Source of the DNA: Virgibacillus doumboii
GTDB taxonomy: Bacteria; Bacillota; Bacilli; Bacillales; Amphibacillaceae
DNA: 64,000 nt
Assembly: GCF_902806455.1 (NCBI RefSeq)
Contig: NZ_CADCWQ010000001.1
Coordinates: 372,001-436,000, forward strand
Reading direction: 5' to 3'
The notes under the pieces were generated by a model that was not told the origin of the DNA, ran no database searches, and worked only from the letters and a program-made list of their open reading frames with translations. Below are positions 43,713 to 55,870 of this stretch, in pieces. The translations under genes were made by a program, and so were the position numbers. Every line of letters begins with the position of its first letter. The stretch's first letter is position 1.

Positions 43713-45344
43713 ATGAAGAAATGGCTTTTGTTACTCATTTCTATTTTAACCATCATTGCGCTGGCAGCATGTACAACGACCGGTGGCGGTGAAGAGGGCA
43801 GTGAAGATGGAAAAAACTCAGGATCAGACAATACGGAAGAAAAGGTATTACGCATGAACAATGGGGAAGAACCGACGTCACTAAACCCGCCGATTGGGTT
43901 TGATACGGTCTCATGGAATGCCCTGAACAACCTGATGGAAGGTCTCACACGTTTAGGAAAAAATGATAAGCCACAGCCGGCAATCGCCGAAGACTGGGAC
44001 ATTTCCGAGGATGGGAAAACATACACATTCTATCTTCGGGATAATGCAAACTGGTCAAACGGTGATCCGGTAACCGCCCAGGACTTTGTGTACGCCTGGA
44101 AACAGCTTTTGAATCCTGAAACAGGGGCAGCACCAGCATTTTTAGGTTATTTTATTGAAGGCGGCGAAGCGTATAACACCGGTGAAGGTTCAGCAGATGA
44201 TGTAGCGGTAAAAGCAGTGGACGACAAAACATTTGAAGTAACACTTAAAGCACCGACAGGATTTTTCCTGCACGTAATCACAAACCCGGCATTTTTCCCG
44301 GTTAACGCAGAAGTTGCCAAGGAAAATCCGGAATGGCATACCGAAGCAGATACGTTTGTTGCCAACGGTCCATTCAAACTCGAATCGTGGAAGCATGAAA
44401 GTGAAATGGTCATGGTGAAGAATGATCAATACTGGGATAAAGATGCAGTAAATCTTGATAAAATTCACTGGGCAATGGTCAATGATCCAAACACGGAATA
44501 CCAGATGTTTGAAAGCGGCGAGCTTGATATGACCGGAATCCCGTCTGACATGGCTGATCAGCTGATTGATGGGGAGAATGTCGTAATCGAAGAACAGGCG
44601 GGATTATATTTTTACCGCTTTAATGTAAACAAAGAACCATTCACGAATAAGAAAATCCGCAAAGCATTCGCACTGGCAATCAACCAGCAGGATATCGTTG
44701 ATTACGTAACGAAGAATAAAGAAGAGGCAGCAAAAGGGTTTGTATCACCAGGTTTTGTCGGACCGAATGGCAAGGACTTCCGCGAAGTAAATGGCGACCT
44801 TGTGCAGTTCGATCCGGAGAAGGCAAAAAAATTACTGGAAGAAGGTATGGCCGAAGAAGGCTATGATAAGCTGCCGGAAGTGACCCTGTCATATAATACA
44901 AGTGAATCACACAAAGCAATCGCCGAAACGATGCAGGATATGTACAAAACAAACCTCGGTGTTGATGTGACACTGGAAAATACTGAATGGAACGTCTTCC
45001 TGGAAGCACAAAAAGGTCTTGAGCACCAGCTTTCACGAAGCTCATTTATCTTTGACTACGGCGACCCGGTCAACTTCCTGGAAAGCTTTATCACAGGCTC
45101 CACCATGAACCGCACCGGATGGTCAAACGAGGAATACGACAAACTGATTTCCCAGGCCAAACAGGAAACAGACGAACAAAAACGCTGGGAAATGATGTAT
45201 GAAGCTGAAAAACTGCTGGCTGAAGAAATGCCTATATTCCCGATTCATTATTATAACCAGGTCTTCATATATAAGGATTATGTGAAGGGTGTTGTGCGCC
45301 ACCCGGTTGGGTATGTTGAGCTGAAGTGGGCGGATGTGGAGTAG
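43713..45344 (+). CDS. dppE: Peptide-binding lipoprotein DppE (SBP family 5)
   Basis: The 543-residue extracellular receptor has a lipoprotein signal (LAAC, cysteine at 20), a Gly/Ser/Glu linker and the family-5 solute-binding fold (LNPPIGFDTVSWN, PQPAIAEDW, and W/Y-rich C-terminus). By context it binds murein tripeptides or dipeptides for DppBCDF. RBS AAGGGGGAAGT. Confidence 0.94.
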   Translation: MKKWLLLLISILTIIALAACTTTGGGEEGSEDGKNSGSDNTEEKVLRMNNGEEPTSLNPPIGFDTVSWNALNNLMEGLTRLGKNDKPQPAIAEDWDISEDGKTYTFYLRDNANWSNGDPVTAQDFVYAWKQLLNPETGAAPAFLGYFIEGGEAYNTGEGSADDVAVKAVDDKTFEVTLKAPTGFFLHVITNPAFFPVNAEVAKENPEWHTEADTFVANGPFKLESWKHESEMVMVKNDQYWDKDAVNLDKIHWAMVNDPNTEYQMFESGELDMTGIPSDMADQLIDGENVVIEEQAGLYFYRFNVNKEPFTNKKIRKAFALAINQQDIVDYVTKNKEEAAKGFVSPGFVGPNGKDFREVNGDLVQFDPEKAKKLLEEGMAEEGYDKLPEVTLSYNTSESHKAIAETMQDMYKTNLGVDVTLENTEWNVFLEAQKGLEHQLSRSSFIFDYGDPVNFLESFITGSTMNRTGWSNEEYDKLISQAKQETDEQKRWEMMYEAEKLLAEEMPIFPIHYYNQVFIYKDYVKGVVRHPVGYVELKWADVE

Positions 45345-45421
45345 CGGGATTTAGGAGCCCGGTGCGGAAGCGCATTAAAATTCATGTGCGGATTAGCATC
45401 AAAACGAGCGAGATTGCACCC

Positions 45422-45586
45422 ACTTGCGCGACAATACGCCCAACTCGCGCAATAACCGGGCCAACTCGCGCGACAACACACACACTTGCGCAATAACCGG
45501 GTTTACTCGCGCGACACACGCACCCACTCGCGCGACACCGCACCCACTCGCGCGACACCGCACAAACTCGCGCGACACCGCATCCA
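45422..45586. repeat. Tandem array, eight 20-21-bp units (ACTCGCGCGACAA family)
   Basis: Eight units with the core ACTYGCGCRACA repeat every 20-21 bp; the last three are almost identical (GCGCGACACCGCA). Same family as 20932-21127. Located between dppE and the terminator-like hairpin before ldcA; no gene in 45345-45664. Confidence 0.9.
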
Positions 45587-45591
45587 TTTAT

Positions 45592-45637
45592 AAAGAAGGA
45601 ATGGCTCACGACAAGGCCAGTCCTTCTTTCCACATTT
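45592..45637 (+). terminator. Terminator after dppE and repeat array
   Basis: AAAGAAGGA (45592-45600) pairs with TCCTTCTTT (45621-45629), extended by TGGC/GCCA, followed by a loose T-rich tail. ldcA starts 28 bp further. Confidence 0.65.
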
Positions 45638-45664
45638 TTATCAATATAGAAAAGAGGGTTAGTC

Positions 45665-46585
45665 ATGATGAAACCGCAACACCTGAAGACTGGCGATACG
45701 ATTGGGATTATTGCTCCGGCAAGCCCTATCAGGATGGAACGCCTTAATCGCGCCATTCCTTTTTTTAAAAACATGGGACTAAATATAAAGCTCGGCAGAC
45801 ACATTAATCAAGTCCACGGTTATTTAGCAGGAACAGATGAACAGCGCCTGGCCGATTTTCATTATATGGTTGCCGATCCCAATATTAAGGCGATTTTTTT
45901 CGCCCGGGGTGGTTATGGCACAGGGAGAATTGCTGATGATATTGATTACCATCTGATCAGACAGAACCCTAAAATTATGTGGGGGTACAGCGACATTACT
46001 TATTTACATACAGCAATACGGCAGGAAACAGGCCTCATCACTTTCCATGGGCCAATGCCTGCATCCGATATTGCGGATGATGATTTCGATCAGTTATCCG
46101 CCCAATTATTTCAGCAGCTGTTCAGACCCGCTAAACTAACCTACACCGAAGCTATTTCGCCGCTAAACGAGATAAATTCAGGCGAAGCGGCAGGGGAGTT
46201 GGTTGGCGGCAACTTGTCATTACTGGTCAGCACACTTGGCACCGACTACGAGCTGGATACAAACGGAAAACTTCTTTTACTGGAGGATATTGGCGAGGAG
46301 CCTTACCGGGTCGATGCAATGCTCAATCAACTGAAGCTAGCTGGTAAGTTACATGAAGCAACAGGCATTATTGTCGGTGATTTTGCCAAGGCCGAACCGA
46401 TAAAAGAAAAGCCGTCCCTGACATTGGAACAGGTTTTTCATCATTATTTTGCCGACTTGCCGTGTCCAGTTCTGTCAGGATTTAAAATTGGCCACTGCTT
46501 CCCGCATTTTTGCGTGCCCCTCGGTGCAGCGGCTGAATTGTCTTCGGTAAATAAATCATTGACTATCGAAGCGGGAGTGAAGTAA
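45665..46585 (+). CDS. ldcA: Muramoyltetrapeptide LD-carboxypeptidase (S66 family, LdcA/YkfA)
   Basis: The 306-residue serine peptidase has nucleophile S109 in GYSDIT, a downstream Glu in LLLEDIGEEPYRVD near 220 and a His in GHCFPHFCVPLG near 280. It removes the terminal D-Ala from murein tetrapeptides during recycling. It is the YkfA counterpart in this dpp-ykf cluster. AAAGAGGG precedes ATG 45665; the next codon is also ATG. Confidence 0.93.
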   Translation: MMKPQHLKTGDTIGIIAPASPIRMERLNRAIPFFKNMGLNIKLGRHINQVHGYLAGTDEQRLADFHYMVADPNIKAIFFARGGYGTGRIADDIDYHLIRQNPKIMWGYSDITYLHTAIRQETGLITFHGPMPASDIADDDFDQLSAQLFQQLFRPAKLTYTEAISPLNEINSGEAAGELVGGNLSLLVSTLGTDYELDTNGKLLLLEDIGEEPYRVDAMLNQLKLAGKLHEATGIIVGDFAKAEPIKEKPSLTLEQVFHHYFADLPCPVLSGFKIGHCFPHFCVPLGAAAELSSVNKSLTIEAGVK

Positions 46586-46810
46586 CCAGATTGCTAAGCT
46601 TATTTTTATAATGCATAAAAGATATAACCTGCTTAACTACTATGAAAAAGTTTCATGCTCCCAGAAAAGATTGCTATCGGGCTGCAGGGTCTCACCGATG
46701 TCTTAGCTACCATTAGAAGGAAGGCCGACTAAAAGCGGGCATCAGCATACCCTAATTAAGGTGTATGTATTCCTCTCTGCTTAAATTTGCTATTGTTGGA
46801 TTAGAGATTA

Positions 46811-47122
46811 TCGTGAAGAACCCTCTCACGAAGAAAAGGAGACCGAATTAAGCTAGGAATCCTCGTGAGGAACGCTCTCACGAAGAAAAGAAGACCGATT
46901 TAAGCTGGGAATCCTCGTGAGGAACGCTCTCACGAAGAAAAGAAGACCGAATTAAGCTAGGAATCCTCGTGAAGAACCCTCTCACGAAGAAAAGGAGACC
47001 GAATTAAGCTAGGAATCCTCGTGAGGAACGCTCTCACGAAGAAAAGGAGTCCAATTTAAACTAGAAATCCCCATGAGGAGCGTTCCCTCTATGAAAAAGA
47101 GATTGATTTAGGCTAGCCATAG
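46811..47122. repeat. Tandem array, six 52-bp units (CTCACGA superfamily, reverse orientation)
   Basis: Units start at 46811, 46863, 46915, 46967, 47019 and 47071 (the last decayed), each 52 bp. The inverted pair TCGTGAG...CTCACGA inside each unit can form a hairpin. The reverse complement aligns with the 15263 and 60805 arrays. It sits in an 857-bp gene-free stretch (46586-47442) between ldcA and the NlpC/P60 gene, where ykfB would be expected. Outside the array I see no convincing gene or element; a 23-codon frame at 47287 is not supported. Confidence 0.92.
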
Positions 47123-47442
47123 TATCATTCTGCTATAGATACCCCGAAATAATGTAAAGGGTGCGTGTTCTTAGTATGAATAGGATAAACGAAAATCGAA
47201 ATAGGCTTATATAAGGTTGCAGTGACCAAATAAGAAATGAAAATCCCGGTACAAAATTGCTTTTTTCAGGAGGTCATACAGAAACTATGGCTAGGAAAGC
47301 TTTCCAGTTGCGTGGTCAGAGAGTCTCGCCAACTGTTACTAATCAGATTTATTTTTAGTTCGTATTTAGTGTCAACTACGAAGTGAAAAGAGCATCAAAA
47401 CTTACAAAAAGAAACTTCTACAACCATAAGGGGGAACATAAC

Positions 47443-48405
47443 ATGACTGAACAAACGTTTGAACAATTTTCCGATGAACTGTGGGTTGCCGCCGTACAGG
47501 TCGCGACAGTGTGGACATCGCCATCATCTGCCCGTGAACTGGATACCCCAAGCCTAACCAACCCAACAGACATCGATAAATGGATTGCAGGTCTCACATA
47601 CGAAACAAATGTGGCGCTGTGTGATGAAAACCGTGTGCAGACGCAACTACTGTACGGTGAGCCGGTAATCGTAACCGACATAAAAGATGACTGGGCACAC
47701 GTTGTCATTCCATCACAGCCTTCCAAAAAGGATGGGCGCGGGTATCCGGGCTGGGTTCCATTAAGGCAGCTTAAAAAAGAACGCACACAGGACTGGCTCA
47801 CGGATTACGCAGCTGCAGTAACCAGTGACAAAACATGGCTCCAGACAGAATCCGGTGACAACGTTATCAAACTGAGCTACATGTCGACGTTGCCGGTAAT
47901 CGCGGAGCATCCTGATCAAATAGAAGTCCACACCCCGGACGGCGCACTTTTTTTACCAAAATCAGCAGCGATGACCTACCAGACCGACAAAGGACCCGCC
48001 AAGCATCCCGGCACCAAAATCGTCAACGATGCCGAACAATTCCTCGGACTCGATTATTTCTGGGGCGGCATGAGTGCGTTCGGATATGATTGTTCCGGAT
48101 TCGTCTACAACATGCATAAAGCTAACGGATACGTGATTCCGCGTGACGCCGGTGACCAGGCACAATCTGGCAAAAAAATCCCCTACGACCAGCTCGAACC
48201 GGGCGACTTGATTTTTTTTGCCTATGAAGAGGGGAAAGGCAGACTGCACCATGTCGGATTCTATTATGGTAACGGAAAAATGCTCCACTCCCCGCAAACA
48301 GGAAAAGGAATTGAAATGATCGACATAAAAGGAACCAAGTACGAAAAAGAGCTTTGTGCGGCCACACGCTACTGGCAGCAAATGGGGGAAAAAAACAATG
48401 GATGA
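47443..48405 (+). CDS. ykfC: NlpC/P60 gamma-D-glutamyl-L-diamino acid endopeptidase (YkfC-like)
   Basis: The 320-residue cysteine peptidase has two SH3b-like regions (about 10-185) and a C-terminal NlpC/P60 domain with nucleophile C217 (YDCSGFVY) and histidine in RLHHVGFYYGNGKMLHS. B. subtilis YkfC cleaves L-Ala-gamma-D-Glu peptides in the cytoplasm. No signal peptide is seen, consistent with that. ATG 47443 follows AAGGGGGAAC. Its end overlaps dppF by eight bases. Confidence 0.92.
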   Translation: MTEQTFEQFSDELWVAAVQVATVWTSPSSARELDTPSLTNPTDIDKWIAGLTYETNVALCDENRVQTQLLYGEPVIVTDIKDDWAHVVIPSQPSKKDGRGYPGWVPLRQLKKERTQDWLTDYAAAVTSDKTWLQTESGDNVIKLSYMSTLPVIAEHPDQIEVHTPDGALFLPKSAAMTYQTDKGPAKHPGTKIVNDAEQFLGLDYFWGGMSAFGYDCSGFVYNMHKANGYVIPRDAGDQAQSGKKIPYDQLEPGDLIFFAYEEGKGRLHHVGFYYGNGKMLHSPQTGKGIEMIDIKGTKYEKELCAATRYWQQMGEKNNG

Positions 48406-49426
48406 TAAAATTTTGCAAATCAGCGGGCTTCGCAAATATTTTAATATGGGAAAAGGTCGAACCCTTCAGGCTGTCAATGATGTCACGTTTCATGTCAATA
48501 AAGGGGAAACATTCGGTCTTGTCGGCGAATCTGGCTGCGGGAAAACGACGATTGGCCGCACAATTATGGGACTTTATGACAAAACAGCTGGCGATGTTAT
48601 TTACGACGGCAGGAACGTTCATGACCTTGATGACAAGGAGCGGTTTAAATTCTACCGCAGCATGCAAATGATTTTTCAGGACCCGTATGCGTCGCTGAAT
48701 CCACGGTCAACGGTTAAAGAAGTTATCGCCGAGCCGATGGAAGTCCATGGCATGTTTCCAAAAAAGAAGGAGCAGCTTGACCGCGTTTATCAGTTGTTGG
48801 AGGAAGTTGGTTTAAACCGGGAGCACGCCAATCGTTATCCACACGAATTCAGCGGTGGACAGCGTCAGCGGATCGGCATCGCCCGTGCGTTGGCACTCGA
48901 CCCGGATTTCATCATTGCCGATGAACCAATCTCAGCACTGGATGTGTCCGTCCAGGCCCAGGTCGTCAATTTATTAAAAGAATTACAGGATGAAAAGGGA
49001 CTGACCTTCTTATTTATCGCCCATGATCTGTCAATGGTCAAGCAGATTTCCGACCGGATTGGTGTCATGTATTTGGGAAACATGGCCGAACTGACGACGA
49101 GCGACGCACTCTATGAAAACCCGCTCCATCCATATACACAAGCTCTATTATCCGCGATTCCGATTCCCGACCCGGATATCGAGGATTCAAGAGAGCGGAT
49201 AATTCTCGATGGCGATTTGCCGAGTCCAGTCAATCCGCCAAGCGGGTGCGTGTTCCGTACCCGCTGTCCAATGGCAATGGAAGTTTGTTCAGTAAAGACA
49301 CCCCAATGGCAGGAAGTTGAAAAAGATCATTACGTTGCCTGTCACCTGTACGATGAGACATTGGAGGAGAGTGAGCGCCAGTCCGTTAAAAATAATAGAG
49401 TCATCGAGGAACCTGTGCACGAATAA
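48398..49426 (+). CDS. dppF: Peptide ABC transporter ATP-binding protein DppF (YkfD)
   Basis: The 342-residue ATPase has Walker A GESGCGKTTIGR near residue 46, signature FSGGQRQRIG near 155, Walker B FIIADEPISALD, and the C-terminal CVFRTRCPMAMEVC. It is the second ATPase for DppBC, placed last as in the B. subtilis dpp-ykf operon (ykfD). ATG 48398 lies inside the end of ykfC after GGGGGA. A terminator overlaps the stop. Confidence 0.95.
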   Translation: MDDKILQISGLRKYFNMGKGRTLQAVNDVTFHVNKGETFGLVGESGCGKTTIGRTIMGLYDKTAGDVIYDGRNVHDLDDKERFKFYRSMQMIFQDPYASLNPRSTVKEVIAEPMEVHGMFPKKKEQLDRVYQLLEEVGLNREHANRYPHEFSGGQRQRIGIARALALDPDFIIADEPISALDVSVQAQVVNLLKELQDEKGLTFLFIAHDLSMVKQISDRIGVMYLGNMAELTTSDALYENPLHPYTQALLSAIPIPDPDIEDSRERIILDGDLPSPVNPPSGCVFRTRCPMAMEVCSVKTPQWQEVEKDHYVACHLYDETLEESERQSVKNNRVIEEPVHE

Positions 49427-50926: not shown

Positions 50927-51883
50927 ATGAAAGAAGAAAACAATGGTACTCCAAAAAATAAGTGGAGTCGCATTTTCCGCAAGAAGTGGTTTTTTCCAGC
51001 AGTGTACCTGACGATTGCTGCGCTTCTTCTATCGGTGGTGATTTGGTATCAGAACCTGGACAACCAGATTCAGGAAACAGGTGATGAGCCAGTTTCAGAT
51101 AACTACTCACCAGAAGAGTTCGATCAAGATGCGCAACCCGTTATGGACCAGCAGGAAGTCATTAAGATGCCTGTCGTTGATCAGGAACAAGCAGAAATCG
51201 TAACTAAATTTTATGATTACAACGCAGATCAGAAGGATAAAGAAAGTGCATTGATCCTTTATAACAACCGATTCTATCAAAGTACAGGTATTGACATCGC
51301 ACATGCTGATGGTGAAACGTTTGATGTATTGGCATCGCTGAGCGGAACCGTTGAAGAGGTAAAAGAAGATCCGCTGTACGGCAATGTCGTTACATTATCA
51401 CACGGAAACGATGTGGTAACGTACTACGCAAGCATGGGAGAAGTTAATGTCAAAGATGGTGACAAGGTTCAGCAAGGCGACGTTCTTGGTACTGCCGGCG
51501 AAAGCATCTTTGGCAAGGATAACGGTACACACGTCCATTTCGAAATCAGGAAAAATGGTGACGAAGTAAATCCGGAAGAATTTTTCAATCAGCCGGTAAG
51601 CGCACTTGGTGAAGCATCTTCAGAAAGTGAAAGCACTGAATCTGAAAGCACTGAGTCTGAAGGTACCGAATCTGAAGGCACTGAAGAAGGAAACACAGAC
51701 GAATCCAGTGATGCGGAAAGTGAAGATGCAAACTCGGATCAATCCGGCAATACAACAGAAGATCCAAACCAGCAACAAGAGAGCGATGACACAAGTCAGG
51801 ACGACACAAGTCAGGATGAGCAATCAGATGAAAATTCAGACGGTGGCACAACCGATTCATCTGACACATCCGGAAATGCATAA
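50927..51883 (+). CDS. spoIIQ: Stage II sporulation protein Q
   Basis: The 318-residue forespore membrane protein has one transmembrane helix (about 24-42) and a LytM/M23 domain (about 105-222, ending THVHFEIRKNG). The first zinc histidine of active LytM enzymes is replaced (STGID in place of HxGxD), as in catalytically dead bacillar SpoIIQ. It pairs with SpoIIIAH across the intermembrane space. Residues about 225-318 form a very Ser/Glu/Asp/Gln/Asn-rich tail. RBS TTGAGGTGA; sigma-F promoter upstream; terminator downstream. Confidence 0.94.
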   Translation: MKEENNGTPKNKWSRIFRKKWFFPAVYLTIAALLLSVVIWYQNLDNQIQETGDEPVSDNYSPEEFDQDAQPVMDQQEVIKMPVVDQEQAEIVTKFYDYNADQKDKESALILYNNRFYQSTGIDIAHADGETFDVLASLSGTVEEVKEDPLYGNVVTLSHGNDVVTYYASMGEVNVKDGDKVQQGDVLGTAGESIFGKDNGTHVHFEIRKNGDEVNPEEFFNQPVSALGEASSESESTESESTESEGTESEGTEEGNTDESSDAESEDANSDQSGNTTEDPNQQQESDDTSQDDTSQDEQSDENSDGGTTDSSDTSGNA

Positions 51884-51898
51884 TCTGCTGGTATAACG

Positions 51899-51929
51899 CC
51901 CTAGTAATTTTACTAGGGTTATTTTTTTT
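51899..51929 (+). terminator. Terminator after spoIIQ
   Basis: CCCTAGTAA (51899-51907) and TTACTAGGG (51910-51918) are followed by TTATTTTTTTT. Confidence 0.9.
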
Positions 51930-51999
51930 GCATTTAAACCATTGCATCGGACATATGTCCTCGTACAACTTCAGAAACGGTGGTATGTTGGAAAATACA

Positions 52000-52168
52000 G
52001 ATTGTTAGGAATTCAATGCCATTTTTTAACTTTATGCAGAAATTGTCGAACGATTAAGGTTTTTTTTTCTGAAATGTATGGTAATATATCAAGTAATAGT
52101 TAATTTTGTTGAAAAATGACGGGAATTGTAGGAAAAAAGTCCTAGATTCCTAACAATCGGTGGCATTG
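52000..52168. promoter_or_regulatory. Regulatory region of the AimR-like gene (Spo0A boxes, inverted repeats)
   Basis: TGTCGAA at 52044-52050 matches the Spo0A box core exactly, and TTTGTTGAA at 52105-52113 has one mismatch. An extended -10 (TGG-TAATAT, 52079-52087) lies between them. GATTGTTAGGAA (52000-52011) is the exact reverse complement of TTCCTAACAATC (52147-52158). Likewise CAATGCC (52014-52020) pairs with GGCATTG (52162-52168). These two dyads flank the promoter and are candidate operators. Binding is inferred from sequence only. Confidence 0.5.
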
Positions 52169-52197
52169 CTTAATAGTAGAAAGGAGCGGCGACATCA

Positions 52198-53235
52198 ATG
52201 CACTTTTCAAAAGCAGATTTAATGCCCGATTCGATGATTACAATCTCAAATAACGACAGACTGACACTGGGACAGGTTGCACAAATGCTTTCCTATGAAC
52301 ATGAGGTACAGACCGCTAAAGAGTTGACGCGGAAATTTTGCCTGCAATCAAGTTCCGATGAAGTCCAAAAAACAGGCATGGAATTTTTGTACATGAATGG
52401 GTATTACGAGGATCTGGAACTGTTAATTAAAAAGAATAAGGAATCGATCAATCGCTCTAACCAGAAGTGGGCGAAGGTTTATCAGGTGACAATGGACCGA
52501 AAGCTTAATCGGTATCCACTTAACGAGTTGTTAATGCGAGCGGAAAGAATCAAAACGGATGACCCCGCACTGAAAATCGTCATTGAATTTATTAAAATAT
52601 CAATTTATTACAGTCTGAGCGAATATGGCAAACTCGGTAATTTTCTGGAAAAACAGCAAAGACTTTTCGAAAAGGTGGAAGATCAATATCTTCTGTCGTT
52701 TTACAATTTGCGTTTATATCAAAACTTATTTATGTACTATTTGGTCCGAAATGAAGTGATTATGGCGAGAAAGTATGCATTTCGTATGTTAAACCAATCG
52801 ACTAACCCGGATACAATATCCAGGACGCATATAAATCTTGGGTTATCCTACTTGTTTGATACGTATTATCAGGCGATGTATCACATGACCGAAGCTCTGA
52901 AAATATCCGAAAAATTTAATTTACATCGTAGGATGAAATGTATGAAGCAAAATAATATCCCTTTTATATCGGCCCATTTCAAAAATGTCGATGGCATAAC
53001 TTCAACAGATAAAAGTGAACAGGCACATCTTGAAATCGCAAAAGGGAATTTTCGGCAAGCGGAGGCCATTCTGGATGAAATACCGATCAACAGTCCATAT
53101 CGAATCTATTATTTGGGAATGGCCAAACAGGATAAAAGCATACTACTGCAAGCTTATAACAATTTCATCGAACAGCGAAGCGATTACTTCTTCAGCAGAC
53201 TGCCACTTAATGCACTTAAACAATTAGGTGCCTGA
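52198..53235 (+). CDS. AimR-family (arbitrium-like) peptide receptor, apparently without HTH
   Basis: The 345-residue all-helical protein resembles AimR, the arbitrium receptor of SPbeta-group phages. Shared features are QKWAKVYQVTMDRKLN near 85, THINLGLSYLFDTYYQAMYH near 205 (TPR-like), LEIAKGNFRQAEAILDEIPI near 280 and the ending YFFSRLPLNALKQLGA. AimR is an RRNPP-type TPR protein that binds a secreted peptide. Aligned by eye, the usual ~35-residue N-terminal helix-turn-helix is missing, so this may act on a protein rather than DNA. A secreted pre-peptide gene follows, as aimP follows aimR. No phage genes surround it; neighbours are spoIIQ and spoIIID. RBS AAAGGAG is 11 bases from the ATG. 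Confidence 0.75.
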   Translation: MHFSKADLMPDSMITISNNDRLTLGQVAQMLSYEHEVQTAKELTRKFCLQSSSDEVQKTGMEFLYMNGYYEDLELLIKKNKESINRSNQKWAKVYQVTMDRKLNRYPLNELLMRAERIKTDDPALKIVIEFIKISIYYSLSEYGKLGNFLEKQQRLFEKVEDQYLLSFYNLRLYQNLFMYYLVRNEVIMARKYAFRMLNQSTNPDTISRTHINLGLSYLFDTYYQAMYHMTEALKISEKFNLHRRMKCMKQNNIPFISAHFKNVDGITSTDKSEQAHLEIAKGNFRQAEAILDEIPINSPYRIYYLGMAKQDKSILLQAYNNFIEQRSDYFFSRLPLNALKQLGA

Positions 53236-53306
53236 CCTCGTGAAAACGGGACGAGTGATAAGTCCCTTTCCAATATTTGTATAAAATAGGGTTGTACTTT
53301 CTGAAC

Positions 53307-53320
53307 TTTTACATGTAAAA
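53307..53320. promoter_or_regulatory. 14-bp palindrome before the pre-peptide gene
   Basis: TTTTACATGTAAAA is a perfect palindrome ending seven bases before the AAAGGAGG ribosome-binding site. A candidate operator or part of the promoter of the peptide gene. Confidence 0.45.
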
Positions 53321-53340
53321 ATGTGGAAAGGAGGTATAAT

Positions 53341-53466
53341 ATGAAAAAATTAATGGCTGTATTAGGCATCACCGCGCTATTGATGATGGGCTCCATAACT
53401 GTGTCAGCAGAAACAGAGGGGCCATTGCTGCAAGTACTAGATCCAATACCAGGTGAACCAGATTAA
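53341..53466 (+). CDS. Secreted signalling pre-peptide (AimP/Phr-like), 41 aa
   Basis: A 41-codon frame starts at ATG 53341 behind AAAGGAGGT at ideal spacing. It has a lysine pair, a hydrophobic core (LMAVLGITALLMMGSI) and a signal-peptidase site after TVSA. The exported part is ETEGPLLQVLDPIPGEPD. Size, layout and position 105 bp after the receptor match AimR-AimP and Rap-Phr pairs, in which the C-terminal 5-8 residues are cut out, re-imported by an oligopeptide permease and bound by the receptor. The mature form is unknown; something within LDPIPGEPD is likely. Confidence 0.7.
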   Translation: MKKLMAVLGITALLMMGSITVSAETEGPLLQVLDPIPGEPD

Positions 53467-54007: not shown

Positions 54008-54289
54008 GTGCACGATTACATCAAAGAAAGGACTATCAGGATAGGTAAATATGTCATTGAGACGAGGAAAACCGTCCGAGTGATAGCAAAGGAATTTGGT
54101 GTTTCCAAAAGCACAGTCCACAAAGATTTAACAGAACGCTTACCAGAAATAAATCCGGAGCTCTACAACGAGGTGAAAAACGTACTCGAACACCACAAAT
54201 CAATCCGCCATCTTCGCGGAGGCGAAGCAACCCGCAAAAAATACAGAATCGATCCAAAAGAAGACACAACAGCCAAACCAGTCGGATAA
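54008..54289 (+). CDS. spoIIID: Sporulation transcriptional regulator SpoIIID
   Basis: The 93-residue mother-cell regulator has a helix-turn-helix at about 23-43 (VRVIAKEFGVSKSTVHKDLT) and the basic tail HHKSIRHLRGGEATRKKY that also contacts DNA. It represses or activates many sigma-E genes. Start is GTG 54008 (MHDYIKERTI), nine bases after GGGAGG. The residues after 80 differ from B. subtilis. A GC-rich terminator lies 150 bp downstream; a single perfect DnaA box (54418-54426) lies between. Confidence 0.95.
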   Translation: MHDYIKERTIRIGKYVIETRKTVRVIAKEFGVSKSTVHKDLTERLPEINPELYNEVKNVLEHHKSIRHLRGGEATRKKYRIDPKEDTTAKPVG

Positions 54290-54469: not shown

Positions 54470-54518
54470 GGTGTGGTGAGGTGGTGAACTAGCAATATTG
54501 TATGCCTAGGATAGTGGA

Positions 54519-54678
54519 TATCAACCCGTAAGCGAATATATCGACCGGACAGCGAGGATATCAACCGGACGCCATATATATCAACCGGACAGCAAGGAAA
54601 TCAACCCGTGAGTGAATATATCAACCGGATAGCGAGAATATCAACCCGACAGCAATTATATCGCCCCGAGACGATATG
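54519..54678. repeat. Tandem array, eight 20-bp units (TATCAACCCGACAGCGAATA family)
   Basis: Eight units of exactly 20 bp begin with WATCRACCSG at 54519 and every 20 bp after. The family recurs on the other side of the NERD gene (55871-56050), in the same orientation, and in degenerate form at 26367 and 36416. Confidence 0.92.
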
Positions 54679-54735: not shown

Positions 54736-55764
54736 CTAGTCAATCTCTTTAGTGATATTTTTTATATATGGAAAAACAGAATCCTGAGGAAAATCACTTA
54801 TTCTTGGGGAATGATATTTTCGCCCCTTGTTATCGCCTGTCACACTAAGGTCCATAGAATTCAAGCATACATTAGCTGTCCTCCCCGAACCAATCTGCAA
54901 GAGTTCTCTGCACTGGCGGTTCGTAATAGTGGTTCCATGAATAAGAAAATAATCGAGAATTTTCCGCACGTGAGCATCGAAGGAAATATGTTTGCACCGT
55001 GGACAGAGCCATTTTTTATATACACGCTGTAAGGGATAATGATTGCACACCGAACAGGCGATACCTTTGATGAAGTGCTTATCTTCTAAATTAAAGTTAT
55101 TGAGCGGGTTTGAGCGAAGCGGTGTATTCGCCCTTAGAAGGGAACTTTGGATTTTTTTCAGAGCTGGAAACGTAAGATGTTCCCTAGTGTATTTATTGTT
55201 CAGTTTATCCAAATGCTGGTGCAAACTTTCGGTGTGAATAATCTTTTCGTAGACATATGGATCTTGATGGAAATTTTCGAAAATAGTTGTGGGGTAAGCG
55301 ATCACGACAACGGTTTCAATCGGTATGCCATATATACCTTTACTCTCCAGCAACATCTGCAGGTGACTTTTTTGAGCTTCAGCTTGCAATATAGGATCTT
55401 TGTAAGCAGTTGTTTCCCCCTTATATTCCTGAGTAAATTGATGCTGTTTTGAATCATATGTTACTTTTCCTTTGAGATTTTTGATTTCAAAAATGGAGAA
55501 GAACTTTCTTGTCGGTAGCAACGTGTCGGTTTGGAAATGAAACGGTGGATTTTCCAGGCGGATACCCTTTATAGGGAAGAAGTCCTTTTTATGAGGGTAG
55601 GTAGCAAGTTTGTAGTCAACATTGCATTCACCGTCATATCCGGCTTTTTCTTTTTTGTAACCGGAAATGATCGCGTTATTTTCGCGGTATTGTTCCTTGA
55701 GGTTCCTGAATAAAGCTTCATAAAATAGAAGCGCGTACGGTTTTTTTCTATTGTTGATGAACAG
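54736..55764 (-). CDS. NERD-domain protein with C-terminal zinc ribbon (second copy)
   Basis: Divergent relative of the gene at 14286. The NERD core has EKAGYDGE, FQTDTLLPTRKFFSIFEIKN (D...ExK) and VVVIAYPTT. A zinc ribbon follows (CSVCNHYPLQ and CPRCKH), then a helical tail that may be winged-helix-like. The best ribosome-binding site (AGAAGGAG) is eight bases before CTG 55764, giving 342 residues (FINNRKKPYALL...), which fits NERD N-termini. A longer frame to ATG 55839 has no ribosome-binding site and adds atypical residues. One of only two minus-strand genes; flanked on both sides by 20-bp arrays of one family. Activity unknown; nuclease-like by fold. Confidence 0.78.
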   Translation of the reverse strand: MFINNRKKPYALLFYEALFRNLKEQYRENNAIISGYKKEKAGYDGECNVDYKLATYPHKKDFFPIKGIRLENPPFHFQTDTLLPTRKFFSIFEIKNLKGKVTYDSKQHQFTQEYKGETTAYKDPILQAEAQKSHLQMLLESKGIYGIPIETVVVIAYPTTIFENFHQDPYVYEKIIHTESLHQHLDKLNNKYTREHLTFPALKKIQSSLLRANTPLRSNPLNNFNLEDKHFIKGIACSVCNHYPLQRVYKKWLCPRCKHISFDAHVRKILDYFLIHGTTITNRQCRELLQIGSGRTANVCLNSMDLSVTGDNKGRKYHSPRISDFPQDSVFPYIKNITKEID

Positions 55765-55870
55765 TGGAATCACTCCTTCTATGTATTTAATAATAATTTC
55801 GGCAAAAAAAGAGTAATTCCTGCATATAGATTTGAACATTCTGTGAACACCATAAACTTGGCAGGTTACA

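Follow-up and report, generated by a model that had tools for sequence, protein, structure and literature searches.

The closest described relatives of the system reported here are the arbitrium receptor AimR and its peptide AimP of SPbeta-group phages, Rap-Phr of Bacillus, AloR-AloP of Paenibacillus, and a set of AimR-type receptors lying outside prophages. SPbeta AimR dimerises via its C-terminal helix alpha22 (PMC6458997), and three AimR clusters have been assigned to phages of the B. cereus and B. subtilis groups (PMC10075063). Rap has been called the sole RRNPPA member lacking a helix-turn-helix (HTH) domain (PMC9765709), while another study inferred HTH loss for Rap and one further subfamily and also reported a chromosomal AimR-like subfamily in Alkalihalobacilli (PMC12700828). 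In Paenibacillus, the peptide AloP13 lowers a spo0E-like gene (PMC7425212). Here we analyse a chromosomal receptor-peptide cassette between the sporulation genes spoIIQ and spoIIID in a 64,000-nucleotide stretch of the Virgibacillus doumboii genome (contig NZ_CADCWQ010000001.1, positions 372,001 to 436,000; the stretch is hereafter the window, its genome G000). Judged from sequence comparison, a Spo0A box, an HTH-less AimR and an octapeptide precursor form one conserved host unit at this site, suggesting that bacteria own a peptide signal that helps to control when spores form.

The receptor gene (52198..53235, + strand; ATG start, 345 aa) had been described in an initial annotation of the window as encoding an AimR-family tetratricopeptide repeat (TPR) protein, and both this description and its coordinates proved correct. 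The protein scores 192.7 bits against NF038310 (AimR; cut-off 70) and 270.6 bits against PF22871 (cut-off 26.7), and matches phrog_1728 at E 3.6e-56; AimR is its best match among TPR families, every profile library tried places it in the AimR family, and the closest solved structures by sequence are those of SPbeta YopK/AimR (E ~4e-10). It is the only AimR in G000. The NF038310 match begins at profile position 42 of 365, leaving the HTH part uncovered, and begins at positions 30-53 in four other proteins of the host clade defined below (L031, L071, L085 and L076), compared with positions 1-15 in five HTH-type AimRs, SPbeta and phi3T included. Consistent with this, 25 aligned residues of the window receptor precede SPbeta position 50, against 49 in SPbeta itself; this N-terminal portion comprises at most 37 residues in 67/69 host-clade rows and at least 43 in 18/21 other rows. 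The two longer host-clade N-termini belong to L054 (42 residues; not among the proteins run against the NF038310 profile) and L076 (43 residues, yet with a profile match from position 33). At the other end, 68/69 host-clade rows stop no more than 7 residues past SPbeta position 375, and 17/21 other rows run on for at least 9. By these measures host-clade receptors are without the HTH and, in 68 of 69 cases, without the alpha22 dimer helix; because both are gone, AimR-type DNA binding by these proteins is unlikely, and on this evidence the window receptor is not an arbitrium-type transcription factor.

Four of the AimR peptide-contact residues named in PMC9232636 were checked (N202, R228, N273 and E300), of which E300 has a largely conserved equivalent, and N273 one that is conserved in most rows from the spoIIQ-spoIIID site. 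Conservation within the receptor is lowest over its first 30 residues. A Pfam scan up to E 10 matched no RapH_N (PF18801) three-helix bundle in the window receptor, by which Rap membership was ruled out. AloR membership was likewise ruled out, given the absent HTH and the nearest named relatives, which come from Virgibacillus, Lentibacillus, Oceanobacillus and Ornithinibacillus. A search of G000 with the RNPP_C model gave a single match barely over the cut-off, with stops inside.

Among 100 sampled relatives, 62 yielded an AimR match, 61 of them above cut-off. In total 98 matches were obtained and 86 were aligned, the other 12 comprising copies from G022, G041 and G044 that were broken or incomplete, along with seven additional, distant ones from G082 and G091. 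An open receptor copy lies at the spoIIQ-spoIIID site in 48 of 60 genomes of the window's family (G000 and 47 of 59 relatives), and a 49th occurs in G094, from another family. The initial annotation had described the neighbours as core sporulation genes in their usual order and suggested that the system is host-owned, and both points were borne out by the relatives: spoIIQ and spoIIID are both found within 3 kb and on the same strand in 46/49 loci, orthologous receptors thus being surrounded by core genes. Of the other three loci, L051 and L086 reach a contig end and L092 has spoIIID ~10 kb away. Receptor distances also correlate with those of neighbouring proteins (Spearman 0.76 for SpoIIQ, 0.56 for SpoIID, 0.44 for Mbl and 0.40 for FabZ, over 47, 47, 45 and 40 of 48 rows, respectively; 0/999 permutations each), as inheritance by descent predicts.

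Phylogenetic reconstruction of 90 AimRs, following removal of a 184-aa plasmid row (Bacillaceae C02), placed 69 in a single clade with 100/100 support, here called the host clade, comprising the 49 receptors of this site, 11 of a second site and nine located elsewhere. Nested within it is a subclade (100/98) of 48 of the 49 spoIIQ-spoIIID rows plus five others, with L079 (G094) outside. SPbeta, phi3T and the other sampled HTH-type AimRs fall outside the host clade; the tree is midpoint-rooted and does not fix the direction of transfer between phage and host. Relatives among 50,697 phage records were confined to 13 SPbeta-group phages at 22-24% identity. A close-range short-pattern search of viral contigs with the receptor found no relative, nor did a single-protein close-relative scan of genome contigs, although a whole-genome search did recover relatives. 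Carriage by a phage or other mobile element, as in arbitrium, was not found, and an origin as a phage remnant was rejected on the basis of core-gene synteny and the vertical signal. From these comparisons, the receptor cassette belongs to the host and has been retained by descent in most of the family genomes sampled. Across the order, 23 of 199 genomes searched proved to have host-clade-like receptors, with both this site and the second one occupied in G094 and G164 of another family. Also identified in the same order was a locus (L093; G064:C7:86000-105900) of seven tandem AimR genes with HTH-length N-termini.

Upstream of the receptor, the initial annotation had noted a Spo0A-box match, TTGTCGAA (52043..52050, +), a claim that gained weight from the relatives. 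Within the window alone, box matches with up to one mismatch occur at chance level (84 vs 78 expected). Of the 49 site-conserved loci, 41 carry TGTCGAA, on either strand, in the 300 bp preceding the receptor, compared with a mean of 1.5 and a maximum of 5 in 40 shuffle sets, and we read the box as a real phylogenetic footprint. Upstream of control genes in the same loci the motif is missing from spoIID (0/48), spoIIID (0/47), the flagellar rod genes past spoIIID, which we take to be flhO (0/42), fabZ (0/41) and a gene for a NERD-domain protein (0/14). At receptors located elsewhere it is found in 4/11 speB-ywiB loci (the second site), in three of nine other host-clade copies (L050, L094 and L097), and in one (L099) of 17 other locus rows checked. 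An extended -10-like element, TGG-TAATAT (52079..52087, +), follows 31 nt after the box, and an alignment of ten loci revealed a conserved TGTGnTATTATA-like -10 in the corresponding region. The window box would accordingly sit at about -51 to -44 relative to the start, just upstream of the -35 region, a position that suggests activation by Spo0A, which G000 encodes. Over the 49 loci, the sequence upstream of the receptor contained sigma-H, F, E, A and cre patterns about as often as shuffled DNA, apart from strict sigma-H (2/49 vs 0.1) and sigma-E (6/49 vs 2.6; shuffle maximum 8).

The pre-peptide gene reported downstream of the receptor is also real and correctly placed (53341..53466, +; ATG start, 41 aa), with a Sec signal peptide-like segment at residues 1-23, judged by eye, and a strong ribosome binding site, AAAGGAGG (53327..53334, +). 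A TPR receptor with an adjacent secreted-type propeptide, the arrangement of RRNPPA systems, is present at this locus. The initial annotation had likened the pair to aimR-aimP; the gene order supports that likeness, whereas the small gene does not match the AimP family and the receptor lacks the HTH, on which the annotation was silent. An automated search, tuned to DP..G after the motif had been noticed, with relatives' start codons set by a simple rule and signal peptides judged by charge and hydrophobicity, recovered a signal-type open reading frame (ORF) with DP..G near its C-terminus no more than 450 bp downstream in 33/49 loci, compared with a mean of 0.01 and a maximum of 1 in shuffled DNA. 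A wider search gave 36 loci and reading added L064, so that the small gene is conserved in relatives, with a DPxxGxxx unit downstream of the receptor in 37/49. In 33/36 cases the distance from the D to the end of the ORF is exactly eight residues (exceptions L040, L062 and L081), and six of the 36 ORFs contain repeats, with 2-15 motif copies: L031 carries DPVMGDLD five times and L088 DPEHGEIF four times, L043 has two such units, L044 three copies of the motif, L085 four, and L045 has 15, which are of two kinds. L064 has at least six units. A chance ORF was rejected on the shuffle control together with these repeats. Given the tandem repeats and exact eight-residue C-termini of relatives, the DPxxGxxx octapeptide is the predicted mature pheromone, corresponding in the window to DPIPGEPD, the last eight residues of the pre-peptide (53440..53463, +).

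Leader type and the DP..G end are conserved across pre-peptides, and little else. The window pre-peptide gave no match to the AimP model NF033802; among 30 pre-peptides scanned (28 of the 37 site peptides plus L050 and L124), one reached E 0.14, compared with E 1e-19 to 1e-23 for three true AimPs, and four gave weak matches to the Phr leader model (best E 0.033). Those database relatives that have a name are annotated as hypothetical or uncharacterized. DP-G type ends are also seen at other AimR loci, and a DPG motif has been noted in AimR-type and Paenibacillaceae peptides (PMC12700828), so that a DP-G theme is shared. In another family (f7; L147, L149, L151, L152 and L153), the pre-peptides downstream of host-clade-like receptors have DPGDPGMG-type units, in several cases repeated. 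In three genomes of one genus (G014, G057 and G179) the short ORF after the receptor is seemingly leaderless (L086, L090 and L161) and ends in DPDYGDIG or DPDFGDIG, as if the pheromone were exported otherwise or used intracellularly. Promoter patterns (sigma-H, F, E, A, cre) searched in the 150 bp after the receptor identified no promoter for the pre-peptide. Two other elements lie in this interval: a perfect 14-bp palindrome, TTTTACATGTAAAA (53307-53320), just 5' of the ribosome binding site, and AAATAGGG (53284-53292), ~50 nt 5' of the pre-peptide start, which is kept in 8/9 same-genus loci printed, with a variant in G008, and is a possible promoter or operator.

Receptor, box and peptide tend to be lost and moved together in the genomes compared. 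Six genomes (G001, G011, G021, G036, G037 and G059) possess spoIIQ and spoIIID with the receptor absent, and the gap contains neither a coding-strand TGTCGAA nor a DP..G peptide; in G023 it holds ~4 kb of transporter-like genes (named by eye), one TGTCGAA and no DP..G peptide. In G017, both box and peptide accompany a receptor copy located elsewhere (L050), and neither accompanies the one at spoIIQ-spoIIID. G018 and G019 are missing both spoIIID and the receptor. The second home consists of a sister receptor beside speB in 11 loci, flanked on its far side by ywiB and argS in ten (L075 being at a contig end), and with rpoE, pyrG and spo0F further on in L071; these gene names were assigned by eye from the sequences. 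None of the 11 speB-ywiB receptors has its own peptide. In all eight genomes with such a receptor and a readable peptide at the first site, the octapeptide ends in G, G027, G044 and G094 being left out as having no peptide readable by motif; among 30 genomes without a speB-ywiB receptor the last residue is D in 22, M, F and V in two each, and L and G in one each. The eight G-ending genomes may be kin, and so possibly represent one event. G047 (L124) has a Spo0A box and an orphan pre-peptide at spoIIQ-spoIIID, where none of 60 host AimRs found a receptor trace, and its sole AimR lies at speB-ywiB; a database relative of this pre-peptide (P0133) shows two residue differences, neither of them within the octapeptide. 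From these patterns, the simplest reading would be one peptide heard by two receptors. In G044, the site receptor (L110) is broken by TGA and the speB-ywiB copy (L077) is open, and the small ORF at L110 ends in DPAYEDVG, with the motif G missing.

Taken together, these features favour, with reasonable though far from full confidence, a host-owned, Spo0A-controlled, Rap-like sporulation checkpoint built from AimR and read out by a peptide pheromone. Signalling and an action on sporulation are suggested by the location, the Spo0A box, and the co-loss and co-movement of the parts. Under this model Spo0A~P would act at the box, most likely as an activator of the receptor gene since the box lies where it does relative to the -35 region. 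The pre-peptide would be exported by Sec, trimmed to its C-terminal octapeptide (here DPIPGEPD), re-imported through an oligopeptide permease and bound in the TPR groove of the receptor. Because its DNA-binding domain and dimer helix have been lost, the receptor would work through a protein partner, as Rap does, rather than through DNA, the most likely partner being a component of the phosphorelay to Spo0A or a regulator of early sporulation. This could provide a density checkpoint in which Spo0A~P increases the receptor, the receptor holds back commitment, and the peptide, once accumulated, lifts the restraint. RapH_N was found in 2/59 family relatives (G026 and G041) and not in G000, in a search with one Rap model, with a control search matching in B. 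subtilis and also in M. jannaschii; the AimR match of G041 is partial only. For the receptor, a Rap-like role in the phosphorelay would be the obvious guess.

A number of observations weigh against this interpretation. Short N-termini also occur outside the host clade in 3/21 rows (L098, L099 and a B. velezensis plasmid AimR), the profile match of L098 starting at position 34, so that HTH loss alone is no marker of the clade. Of the checked peptide-contact residues, N202 and R228 are not conserved in the alignment. No peptide was detectable in 12/49 loci (L048, L049, L057, L060, L063, L070, L072, L074, L078, L079, L089 and L103), the octapeptide of the window departs from the others at positions 3, 4 and 7, and the window pre-peptide, used alone as query, recovered just itself. 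TGTCGAA is also found upstream of spoIIQ (9/48), mbl (9/46) and oppF (3/30). One relative (G026) holds both a Rap with RapH_N and the receptor, and seven family relatives possess spoIIID with no AimR match, indicating that the receptor is not required for sporulation as such.

Four alternatives to the checkpoint model were considered. The receptor may be a peptide-sensitive co-regulator of transcription acting via a DNA-binding partner such as SpoIIID, Spo0A or AbrB, much as phage AimR controls an adjacent gene and AloP lowers the adjacent spo0E-like gene (PMC7425212). Its position directly upstream of the spoIIID regulator gene fits this idea, but host-clade copies elsewhere (at speB-ywiB, and L050) lie away from spoIIID and hence have no fixed neighbour as target, and the sequence points to no partner; we regard this explanation as unlikely. 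A true Rap-like Spo0F phosphatase is improbable: an HTH-less TPR receptor in a family nearly devoid of RapH_N would fit such a role, as would the spo0F-like gene near the second home in L071, yet direct phosphatase action is not supported since the receptor is without the RapH_N bundle, and the N-terminal 30 residues are those least conserved. Still less probable is a decoy or eavesdropper against arbitrium phages, soaking up AimP or pairing with phage AimR, with the sporulation link being secondary. Nearly 90% of chromosomal non-prophage AimRs were reported as lacking a recognised propeptide and as putative eavesdroppers (PMC9765709), the speB-ywiB receptors come without an adjoining peptide, and G039 also holds an HTH-type AimR (L084). 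Against this, an own pre-peptide and a Spo0A box accompany most receptors at the spoIIQ-spoIIID site (37/49 and 41/49), the phage relatives found are only 22-24% identical, and the dimer helix expected to be necessary for pairing is absent; as G000 holds no other AimR, a heterodimer with an intact AimR in that genome was rejected. Finally, that the small gene encodes an ordinary secreted or membrane microprotein, the receptor sensing something else, is very doubtful: for all the sparse conservation beyond leader type and DP..G end and the self-only recovery by the window pre-peptide, the tandem octapeptides (L031, L088 and L064) have the architecture of multi-copy pheromone precursors, known in Rap and other RRNPPA propeptides (PMC9765709), and DP-G type ends recur at other AimR loci.

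The cassette is surrounded by spoIID and spoIIQ on one side and by spoIIID, an MreB-type gene (referred to here as mbl), flagellar rod genes and fabZ on the other. spoIIQ (50927..51883, +; NF053738, 327.5 bits, cut-off 250) is separated from the cassette by a terminator-like hairpin with a T run (51898..51919, +), and spoIIID follows at 54008..54289 (+; TIGR02844, 143.8 bits, cut-off 111.5). The initial annotation had stated that no integrase, repressor or structural phage genes are near. For integrases and repressors this was confirmed, a PHROGs scan of ten neighbouring proteins (43.7-58.1 kb) matching neither family; two host genes (47383-48405 and that of SpoIIQ) did yield matches to tail, head or lysis families of phages, which probably stem from cell-wall hydrolase domains. 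In the same scan OppF matched ABC-transporter families of phages, SpoIIID a SpoIIID family carried by phages, and the MreB-type gene, weakly, a partition family. Directly 5' of spoIID, genes at 43713-49426 encode OppA-like, muramoyltetrapeptide carboxypeptidase-like, probable cell-wall hydrolase (NlpC/P60 type by eye; no NCBIfam match) and OppF-like ATPase proteins, resembling a murein-peptide recycling operon beside sporulation genes, with NCBIfam scores under curated cut-offs. Short direct repeats of ATATCAACCGGAC type, spotted by eye, lie at ~54510-54600, 3' of spoIIID, and the NERD-domain protein gene (54736-55839, -) lies between spoIIID and mbl, a position it shares in 12/80 loci surveyed. 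Rfam matched nothing across 48-60 kb of the window, and PADLOC matched neither the receptor nor the NERD protein.

A salt-loving spore-former and most of its sampled relatives thus carry an arbitrium-family receptor-peptide pair at a fixed place among spore genes. More broadly, and at somewhat below even confidence, we propose that AimR became a DNA-independent sporulation regulator replacing Rap, through HTH loss and a switch to protein binding; that it is wired to Spo0A and has a new DPxxGxxx octapeptide pheromone family; that in some genomes one spoIIQ-spoIIID peptide is heard by two receptors; and that arbitrium is the phage branch of a family which bacteria also use for dormancy. If true, branches of one receptor family would run both phage and bacterial dormancy, and the direction of exchange becomes a testable question. 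Many host proteins carry the database name 'AimR family lysis-lysogeny pheromone receptor', a label that would then be misleading across much of one bacterial family. Sporulation in halophilic Bacillaceae with little Rap would gain a peptide input, and HTH loss would be shown in the AimR branch, having already been reported for Rap and one other subfamily (PMC12700828). Short peptide sequences are now predicted for 37 genomes. The spoIIQ-spoIIID site, AimR HTH loss, the Spo0A box and the octapeptide are not described in the main-text passages available of PMC9765709 and PMC12700828, or in the published AimR titles and abstracts found, a coverage that is mostly open-access.

With Rap-Phr the host unit shares an HTH-less TPR receptor, a secreted-type pre-peptide just downstream and a Spo0A link; unlike Rap, the host receptor has the AimR profile and no RapH_N, its HTH having been lost in the AimR branch, separately from Rap. 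AloR-AloP is likewise a bacterial rather than phage system tied to sporulation control, and a related Paenibacillaceae subfamily has a DPG peptide motif in common with AimR systems (PMC12700828), but AloR keeps its HTH, affects a neighbouring gene, and belongs to another bacterial family and genome site. To arbitrium the host unit is related by receptor family (NF038310/PF22871), the receptor-then-pre-peptide order, the E300 equivalent and an expected TPR groove, and it differs in being chromosomal and kept by descent, in lacking the HTH and C-terminal dimer helix, in its 22-24% identity, in a pre-peptide that fails the AimP model, in a predicted DPxxGxxx octapeptide in place of a hexapeptide, and in the upstream Spo0A box. 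The chromosomal eavesdropper AimRs (PMC9765709) and Alkalihalobacilli subfamily 21 (PMC12700828) are similarly AimR-type and outside prophages. A propeptide accompanies 11% of chromosomal AimRs in the former study, compared with 37/49 at the spoIIQ-spoIIID site, and these peptide-bearing chromosomal AimRs weaken the view of such receptors as mostly peptide-less eavesdroppers.

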